64,000 nt of DNA, taken from positions 62,001 to 126,000 of the forward strand of contig JAXHMK010000018.1 in NCBI GenBank assembly GCA_034521495.1. The letters are read 5' to 3'. Below the pieces are notes generated by a model, which saw only the letters and a list, made by a program, of their open reading frames with translations, ran no database searches and was not told the DNA's origin. The position numbers and the translations under genes were made by a program. Positions 22,150 through 62,300 of this stretch are shown here, piece by piece. Source of the DNA: Balneolaceae bacterium (GTDB taxonomy: Bacteria; Bacteroidota; Rhodothermia; Balneolales; Balneolaceae). How positions within the stretch are numbered: position 1 is the stretch's first letter; the number at the start of each line of letters is the position of its first letter.

Positions 22150-22276
22150 GAAGGCTTTGTAAAACTCTGACCGTCATCCTGAACTTGATTCAGGATCTCC
22201 AAATACTGACTATAAAGACGAATGGAGAATCTGAATCGAGTTCAGATTGACCAATAACCACGGTTTTGCAAAGTCC
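22150..22276. repeat. Palindromic MITE-like element, family R4 copy 1
   Basis: The ends are inverted copies (GAAGGCTTTGTAAAAC against GTTTTGCAAAGTCCTC). Inside, GTCATCCTGAACTTGATTC and GAATCGAGTTCAGATTGAC form a second long palindrome. Short TCTTA copies flank it. The same family at 50402-50676 has been split by another insertion. It lies in a 591-bp gap (21991-22581) that otherwise shows no gene; the last 150 bp must carry the clpB promoter, which I could not define. Confidence 0.7.
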
Positions 22277-25948: not shown

Positions 25949-26144
25949 GTATCTGTTTAGCGGCTGAAAGCAGAATTTTTTTGATCTCAGATTGGAGATA
26001 TGCGATATTCGATCGCAGATCTAAGAGGAAGAGGTTCAAATCGTATATCTGAGATCAAATATCTCCAATCGCATATCGGTATTCCATACTCTACAAGGTT
26101 CTCTATTCAACGGTTAGATTGACAATCATTCGCTAAGCACATAC
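25949..26144. mobile_element. 196-bp MITE, family R3 copy A
   Basis: The ends GTATCTGTTTAGCG (25949-25962) and CGCTAAGCACATAC (26131-26144) are inverted repeats. The flanks AAGCGTAC (25941-25948) and AAGCGGAC (26145-26152) match at 7 of 8 bases, as expected for an 8-bp target duplication. Inside, GATCTCAGATTGGAGATAT and its inverse form a long hairpin. A truncated reversed copy is at 62159-62300. It occupies most of the 461-bp gap 25793-26253; the rest holds the R7-like GGACGCTTGCGCC fragment and the hairpin at 26210. Confidence 0.78.
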
Positions 26145-50052: not shown

Positions 50053-50382
50053 ATGGATTCTTCAGAACAAGAAGAGATGAAGCAGGTGATCCTTGAAAAA
50101 ATCGAGGACACCGAACAGGAAATTGAGCAGTTGAAGGAGTTAACGAAACCGATTCAACCCGATGCTGCTTACGGACGTCTGTCCCGGATGGACGCCATCA
50201 ACAATAAAACGATTAATGATGCCGCATTAAGGGAGCAAAAGAGCCGTCTCCAAAAACTGCAGCGGGCTTTGGAAAAATTGGAAAAGGGTAACTACGGAAC
50301 TTGTGTTAAATGTGGAGACTCTATACCCCTTGGCCGTCTTAAGTTTATGCCCTGGACTACAAAATGTGTGAAATGTGCTTAA
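50053..50382 (+). CDS. TraR/DksA-family zinc-finger protein
   Basis: A 109-aa RNA polymerase-binding factor. The N-terminal coiled coil (LEKIEDTEQEIEQLKEL, then KSRLQKLQRALEKLEKG) reaches into the secondary channel in this family. A four-Cys zinc finger follows (CVKCGDSIPLGRL, then CVKC with 17 residues between pairs). The acidic tip is small, so effects with ppGpp are hard to predict. It is monocistronic and converges with the helD gene, another RNA polymerase factor, across a repeat-filled 311-bp gap. Confidence 0.93.
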   Translation: MDSSEQEEMKQVILEKIEDTEQEIEQLKELTKPIQPDAAYGRLSRMDAINNKTINDAALREQKSRLQKLQRALEKLEKGNYGTCVKCGDSIPLGRLKFMPWTTKCVKCA

Positions 50383-50401
50383 TGTAATTTCATCTTTAAG
50401 A

Positions 50402-50676
50402 GACTTTGCAAAATTCAAACCCAGTGTCATTCTGAACTTGGTACCTGTTTAGCGATCTGACAGACGAAAAAAGCCATCTCGGCACAGACCTTCGCCCCAC
50501 CCTTCGCCCCTTCCCGCGGGGGGGTGGGGAGGGCGAAACAATGAATGGCCTGGAACAAGGAGTCTTTCACGCGCTAAACACGTACTGAACTTGATTCAGA
50601 ATCACCAAGCTTTTTTTATGAGTGGAGATCCTGAATCGAGTTCAGGATGACTCACTCGGTTTTAAAAAGCCTATTA
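50402..50676. repeat. Palindromic element, family R4 copy 2, split by a nested insertion
   Basis: The left part (AGACTTTGCAAAATTC ... CATTCTGAACTTG) and right part (TGAACTTGATTCAGAATC ... GGTTTTAAAAAGCCTATT) together equal the intact element at 22150-22276. They are separated by a 145-bp insert at 50441-50585. This fills the gap 50383-50693. Confidence 0.75.
50441..50585. mobile_element. Nested 145-bp MITE (R3-type ends) with perfect 8-bp target duplication
   Basis: The ends GTACCTGTTTAGCG (50441-50454) and CGCTAAACACGTAC (50572-50585) are inverted repeats with one mismatch. TGAACTTG flanks it on both sides (50433-50440 and 50586-50593) and is single in the uninterrupted relative at 22150. 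The ends match those of the 196-bp element at 25949-26144, although the interior (TTCGCCCCACCC / GGGTGGGGAGGGCGAA) is different. Confidence 0.85.
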
Positions 50677-50693
50677 AATGACTCACACTCTTA

Positions 50694-62158: not shown

Positions 62159-62300
62159 GTATGTGTTTAGCGAAAGATTGTCAATCTAACCGTTGAATAG
62201 AGAACCTTGTAGAGTATGGAATACCGATATGCGATTGGAGATATTCGATCTCAGATATACGATCTGACCTTTTTTTTTAAGATCTGAGATCAAAAAATGT
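62159..62300. mobile_element. Truncated R3 MITE copy B
   Basis: Starts with GTATGTGTTTAGCG and runs AAAGATTGTCAATCTAACC and TGAATAGAGAACCTTGTAG, the reverse of the element at 25949-26144, but lacks part of the inner hairpin and the far terminal repeat. Confidence 0.75.

Follow-up and report, generated by a model that had tools for sequence, protein, structure and literature searches.

Insertion sites of R3-type elements suggest that target choice in one branch of the IS66 family depends on DNA shape and not on sequence

The short element R3 of a Balneolaceae genome was inserted at the apex of a hairpin lying within another repeat, R4, and insertion at a hairpin apex is the rule for the whole family of elements that carry the end motif of R3. 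We estimate at roughly 80% the probability that R3 is a MITE of a TnpC-only clade of the IS66 family, inserted by the TnpC transposase, and that this clade and its MITEs pick their targets mainly by secondary structure. Judged from sequence comparisons, the insertion sites suggest that this branch of IS66 chooses where to land by the shape of the DNA and not by its sequence.

The locus was examined in the window, i.e., the whole stretch of 64,000 nucleotides that was analysed. The first-pass annotation had described an R3-type element nested in an R4-type repeat at 50402-50676, and this proved to be right: a 145-bp element with inverted ends and a flanking duplication splits a relative of R4 (Table 1). 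The target length of 8 bp proposed there was also borne out, since exact copies of TGAACTTG lie on both sides of the element and a duplication of 8 bp recurs at 26 perfect-duplication sites in this genome and its relatives. As just seven copies of TGAACTTG occur on the plus strand of the window, it would be unreasonable to ascribe a pair of them exactly bordering 14-bp inverted ends to chance. Moreover, in the uninterrupted R4 copies that were fetched TGAACTTG was nowhere doubled and was present once per element (27 matches with one copy and 27 with none in the opposite-strand reading, the search pattern matching both strands).

The repeat at 22150-22276 had been taken for the intact form of the split element. 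The joined flanks of R3 (50402-50440 and 50594-50676) do align with it, being identical at 89 of the 111 aligned positions (gaps not counted), but the split copy is a diverged relative and not a near-copy. Similarly, the relative age read from the nesting, with R4 older and R3 younger, holds at this locus but cannot be transferred to the two families: 20 other R4 copies were 95-98% identical to 22150-22276, and because they are so alike the R4 family may have been active later than the split copy implies. What the annotation had missed is that the insertion point of R3 in R4 is the apex of an R4-internal hairpin, ATTCTGAA-CTTGA-TTCAGAAT. The locus is intergenic, lying between convergent ORFs with ends at 50382 and 50694, and the strand 50400-50680 folded as RNA was far more stable than its shuffles (z = -5.80), the R4 arms enclosing R3. 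At least 40 copies of R4 are present in the genome (40 of 164 candidates were scored; five of the 45 matches listed were other-strand matches of the same copies). R4 is 127 bp long, has the ends GARGGCTTTGCAAAAC and is accompanied by a duplication of about 5 bp (TTTCA, TATAA and TTCAA in L195, L196 and L198, respectively).

Table 1. Coordinates of the features discussed; positions are those of the window unless a contig is named.
Feature	Position	Strand	Basis
R3 element, 145-bp non-coding MITE with IS66-family ends	50441..50585	+	TIRs, foldback, copies, left-end homology
R3 left terminal inverted repeat GTACCTGTTTAGCG	50441..50454	+	end measurement, genome motif count
R3 right terminal inverted repeat GTACGTGTTTAGCG, minus-strand reading	50572..50585	-	end measurement, motif count
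Target duplication TGAACTTG (8 bp), copy on the left of R3	50433..50440	+	
Target duplication TGAACTTG (8 bp), copy on the right of R3	50586..50593	+	
Left part of the split, diverged R4-type repeat, with 5' hairpin arm ATTCTGAA	50402..50440	+	
Right part of the split R4-type repeat: 3' hairpin arm TTCAGAAT, then second hairpin arm and right end	50594..50676	+	
Intact R4 comparison copy	22150..22276	+	
Second end-motif member, 196 bp, other interior, duplication AAGCGTAC / AAGCGGAC, at hairpin apex	25949..26144	+	
IS110-bearing whole element L038, own genome (G000)	C10:843535-845140		
IS110-bearing whole element L039, own genome (G000)	C19:28928-30533		
IS110-bearing whole element L134, own genome (G000)	C17:29465-31071		

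R3 has the features of a MITE: it is 145 bp long, occurs in multiple copies (at least 24 matches in the genome of 4.57 Mb and 22 contigs, 40 of the 53 candidates having been scored), is bounded by TIRs of 14 nt that are 93% complementary, and is overlaid by no listed ORF of 80 aa or more. Its duplication is of fixed length (8 bp, perfect at the 26 family sites), and its foldback gave a z of -2.38. Assignment of R3 to the IS110 family was rejected on account of its TIRs and 8-bp duplication, and a REP/RAYT unit (palindromes of 20-40 bp with a Y1 transposase) was likewise rejected for an element of 145 bp with TIRs and a duplication. The exact end motif GTAYNTGTTTAGCG was found in 88 copies in the genome, as compared with one for the reversed control pattern, and it bounds several subfamilies that have unrelated interiors and fold back, namely R3, elements of 152 bp, 195 bp and 281-293 bp, and composites of 0.7-1 kb enclosing other MITEs. 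The second end-motif member of the window, at 25949-26144, belongs to the 195-bp type. Among the 30 genomes searched (this one and 29 relatives) the exact motif was present in nine, with 23 copies in G012. A solitary exact end motif with no resolved partner, GTATGTGTTTAGCG, was seen at 62159-62172 of the window. At least two more MITE families (ends near CTGACATTACCCAT and GGAGTTACCCC) were nested within elements with the R3 end motif (L024:300-1000, L050:300-1051, L051:400-1369 and L052:400-1231).

The single match to PF03050 in the genome was located at L127, in a frame that starts about 30 bp inside an exact end motif. The protein carries a DDE_Tnp_IS66 domain (66.5 bits with a cut-off of 23.1, E = 3.3e-18), and with the NCBIfam equivalog transpos_IS66 it scored 147.9 bits, below the cut-off of 180, the protein being C-terminally truncated. 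The right end of this IS66 copy is missing as well, and an R3-like sequence lies about 1080 bp from its left end. With the TnpC copy truncated, no link of an active enzyme to the MITEs is seen in this genome, which counts against our reading; the intact clade members of other genomes carry the same motif at both ends. The left 70 bp or so of L018, a sister copy of R3, aligned with the IS66 left end at L127 with a score of 39 (the best of 500 shuffles reached 23), and after removal of the terminal 23 bp the score was 28 as compared with 18.5 for shuffled sequence. R3 and the IS66 element at L127 thus have in common the end motif and about 70 bp of the left end, and since this match lies well above the shuffles, R3 is best read as an IS66-derived MITE, a deletion derivative of the L127 type. 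Elements of the IS66 family typically have the accessory genes tnpA and tnpB, but a TnpC-only group is not known to have them, so that their presence or absence does not decide membership of the family. The intact elements of the clade, 1584 and 1851 bp long, could hardly hold more than one gene, and the clade element L151 has a single ORF of at least 200 aa; the clade was filed as TnpC-only IS66.

The targets were evaluated in 41 distinct insertion sites from this genome and its relatives whose 8-bp duplication had no more than one mismatch, the flanks being joined to give the empty site. The hairpin score was calculated as the number of paired bases minus twice the number of mismatches in the arms enclosing a loop, 2-9 nt long, at the duplication. 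Sites with more than one mismatch in the duplication or more than three in the ends, as well as identical empty sites, were dropped before counting; the outer sites of L032, L035 and L070 are interrelated but were kept, and they count against the hairpin rule. A score of at least 6 was reached in 30 of the 41 empty sites and a score of at least 8 in 22 of them, whereas the corresponding values were 4.9% and 1.4% for 8200 displaced positions in the same loci and 3.4% and 0.3% for 4100 shuffled sites. The hairpin was present in 24 of the 30 sites of this genome, in 6 of the 11 sites of relatives and, by quality of the duplication, in 23 of the 26 sites where it was perfect. The second end-motif member in the window had a score of 9 with an axis offset of 2.0, and further examples of targets are ACCCGTCAGACCGCT-TTG-AGCGGTCTGACGGGT, with the duplication CCGCTTTG, and GTTCCGAAGG-TCT-CCTTCGGAAC, with the duplication CTCCTTCG. 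Against the rule stand the 11 sites in which the score revealed no hairpin, five of them in relatives, and two elements with exact duplications, L126 and L123, which were found later, lie outside the count of 41 and scored 4 and 3. The target hairpin at least matched the best alternative within 150 bp in 22 of 39 sites.

The position of the insertion within the hairpin was also examined. The apex lay 2.5-3.5 nt from the centre of the duplication, on either side, in 26 of 31 hairpin sites (the 30 sites and L134, which was found with L126 and L123, scored 13 and enters this count only). The same offset was measured in 691 of 3000 control hairpins (binomial p of about 1e-12, the sites being treated as independent). 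The sites are not fully independent, because several targets belong to repeated hairpin families; when grouped by shared 9-mers they fell into 22 sequence classes, 15 of which had a hairpin. The apex was at the same element end in 10 of 12 hairpin sites of the 152-bp subfamily and in 3 of 6 for R3, which is too few to claim an orientation.

Four relatives of the transposase were detected when 84,980 species genomes were scanned, in MAGs of Sabulitectum (Fermentibacterota), Opitutales, Balneolaceae and Leptolyngbyaceae. Further searches with a strict E-value, within the phyla to which our genome (395 genomes), the Leptolyngbyaceae (386), the Opitutales (387) and Sabulitectum (42) belong, added two cyanobacterial clade elements. 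With so few relatives, the clade is rare in the genomes searched. No transposase relatives were found in viral contigs and phages, and those on plasmids all had less than 60% identity (at most about 33% among the matches listed). In the tree the copy of our genome, the cyanobacterial elements and the Opitutales element formed one clade (support 100/100), and L192, a second match from Sabulitectum, was placed outside it.

Hairpin targets were also found in the cyanobacterial members of the clade. The element L151/L182, complete on one contig, is flanked by an exact duplication, GAGGGGTG (CACCCCTC in the other orientation), in a perfect hairpin of at least 14 pairs, and L184, also on one contig, by the exact 8-bp duplication CGAAAAAT in a perfect hairpin of 13 pairs. 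In the Opitutales element the ends, located on two contigs, share AAACTTCG, and the joined site reads GACCTCGAAG-AAAA-CTTCGAGGTC; a hairpin target can thus be inferred across the two contigs. The contigs with the ends of this element (L149 and L159) stop inside it; a further insertion has apparently split the element, and the assembly breaks at the repeat of that insertion. A recognisable 8-bp duplication was looked for in the clade members L148 and L183 and none was seen. Outside the Balneolaceae, the autonomous elements that carry the rule on a single contig number only two.

As a contrast, 17 plasmid-borne IS66 elements were hand-picked from 85 listed matches so as to spread over organisms. 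Resolved ends and exact 8-bp duplications were obtained for 13 of the 17, and none of these 13 elements from outside the clade had a hairpin score of 6 or more. The 13 are not all independent (the tree alignment shows no difference between ISNpe8 and ISH10B, and near-copies are seen among the ISAva2-like elements). The other four, L186, L213, L215 and L224, were dropped because no acceptable end pair emerged in the final search; a doubtful end pair of L186, spanning 2502 bp, had earlier given a hairpin score of 3. The end motif GTA..TGTTTAGC(G/C) is common to the Balneolaceae family and three haloarchaeal IS66 elements, L223 (from a Halococcus dombrowskii plasmid), L189 and L218, even though the haloarchaeal transposases are distant and no hairpin is seen at the targets of these three. 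Since L223 combines the same end motif with a target without a hairpin, the ends alone do not predict targeting, and the two properties are separable.

According to the mechanism that we propose, an IS66 TnpC of the DDE type, which is the presumed enzyme, would act in trans on GTAYNTGTTTAGCG ends and would have placed R3 into the older R4 hairpin, the insertion generating the 8-bp duplication. The duplications cover about 7 nt on one side of the apex and about 1 nt on the other. With ordinary DDE strand transfer as the basis for reading the cut positions, this span implies that one strand would be cut at the hairpin apex, to within about 1 nt, and the opposite strand 8 nt away, inside the stem. 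What TnpC would then recognise is an extruded cruciform or a hairpin of single-stranded DNA, and not a palindrome in B-form.

The same sites might instead be bound as B-form palindromes by a transposase dimer, with no hairpin being extruded; dimeric enzymes often prefer symmetric sites, and the targets of Tn5 are described as palindromic in the accessible text of PMC1525189. However, if a two-fold symmetric complex were bound to such a palindrome, the dyad should fall in the middle of the duplication, and the shift of about 3 nt in one direction or the other at 26 of 31 sites, together with loops of 2-9 nt that break strict palindromy, renders this unlikely and a cruciform or folded single strand the likelier substrate. 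Slightly less probable still is a targeting by sequence, in which the transposase would recognise a small set of repeated palindromes (hairpins of REPs, of MITEs and of terminator-like type), much as REPs are recognised by IS621, IS1397 and ISPsy8, and the structure would be incidental. Several sites indeed share hairpin families, REP targets are reported for elements of the IS3, IS110, IS4, IS256 and IS5 families (PMC1525189, accessible text), and there is a mild base preference beside the loop, with T at duplication position 6 in 19 of 28 aligned targets and A directly after the duplication in 17 of 28. Yet 15 of the 22 sequence classes are hairpins, the conservation over the 28 targets is low (at most 0.63 bit per column) with a high complementarity of the arms, and the hairpins used in cyanobacteria are unrelated. 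If, on the other hand, insertions were random and survived only between genes, where terminator and REP hairpins abound, both the location of R3 and R4 between two convergent genes and the recurrence of intergenic hairpins in this genome (the shared sequence classes) would be expected. We consider this very improbable, given the low frequency of such scores at displaced positions in the same loci (4.9%, as compared with 30 of 41 sites), the register that is fixed to within about 1 nt, and the absence of hairpins from the 13 resolved IS66 insertions of other lineages.

A different enzyme, an IS110-type DEDD recombinase, was initially convincing as the one that mobilises the R3 end-motif family, because three elements of 1606-1607 bp (L038, L039 and L134) with R3-type ends and 8-bp duplications hold an intact 373-aa gene of the IS110 family. 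It was ruled out by aligning the 152-bp MITE with these elements: the insert of 1453 bp is identical in all three and occupies one and the same CT site in the 152-bp MITE, but about a dozen differences separate the host MITEs of L038 and L134, which places IS110 inside the MITE and not in the role of its enzyme. Moreover, in the accessible texts most IS110 elements are said to be without flanking inverted repeats (PMC1525189), and their insertion to be a recombination at a core dinucleotide (PMC11208160). Mobilisation by IS110 is therefore scarcely credible; rather, IS110 appears to use the 152-bp IS66-type MITE as a target and to travel along with it. Two further elements were tried as autonomous copies and rejected, L126 (1044 bp), which has a small transposase-like ORF between REP-like hairpins and an R4 copy, and L131 (2032 bp), which has another IS110-like gene and a duplication with two mismatches; the ends of both are left unexplained by this content. 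The ORF of L126 (2697-3134, minus strand, 145 aa) resembles by eye a REP-associated Y1 transposase, is flanked by ACCGTC...GACGGT hairpins and adjoins the R4 copy, all within 1044 bp that have R3-type ends and an exact 8-bp duplication.

The clade shares with the IS66 family a DDE_Tnp_IS66 transposase, ends starting with GTA and exact 8-bp duplications, and repeats of 8 bp are given for two IS66 elements of Paracoccus in the accessible part of PMC3281130; unlike the 13 resolved members of other lineages, it has hairpin targets. Insertion in palindromic repeats is known from the REP-targeting IS elements (IS621, ISPa11, ISPpu9/10, ISPsy8 and IS1397), of which ISPsy8 is reported at the symmetry axis of the REP hairpin (PMC1525189); the accessible text of this survey of REP targets does not name IS66. 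Whereas those elements recognise REPs, here at least 15 sequence classes of hairpins are used, by an IS66 transposase and with 8-bp duplications. Group IIC introns are not known to have terminal repeats or an 8-bp duplication, and the families and ends of RUP, BOX and SPRITE differ from those of R3. The introns, which insert by stem-loops of varied origin such as rho-independent terminators and attC (PMC7923331, accessible text), further differ in being retrohoming ribozymes that use a short base-paired motif after the stem. RUP, BOX, SPRITE and other bacterial MITEs are, like R3, short, non-coding and often nested in one another, but a hairpin-apex register is not described for them in the accessible text of PMC10969869. 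Searches of an open-access collection, from which most subscription journals are missing, turned up no account of IS66 elements or their MITEs inserting into hairpins. Thus, IS66 elements with 8-bp repeats, other IS families in REPs and group IIC introns at stem-loops are already known, and what is new is the hairpin target of an IS66 clade. To our knowledge, most DDE transposases have been described in terms of sequence preference or near-randomness.

On a broader scale, we lean towards the view that the IS66 DDE transposases of the clade use secondary structure as a target code, with one cut at the apex of an extruded hairpin and another 8 nt off in a stem of any sequence, in at least three phyla. 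In this view the MITEs of the clade would have spread in this way into terminators, REPs and other MITEs, and would themselves provide landing sites for IS110 elements. The harm caused by an apex insertion may be small, because both stem arms remain in place on its two sides and would still be able to pair, and such insertions may be kept nearly neutral by the retained arms. If the shape-based reading is true, such targeting, with both arms spared, would explain why many of the MITEs of this genome are nested and lie in terminator-like or REP hairpins, and a clade that reads shape in a fixed register would provide a testable system for a transposase engaging a cruciform or a folded single strand. 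Hairpin repeats of this kind would then be mosaics, in which the nesting reveals the order of events.
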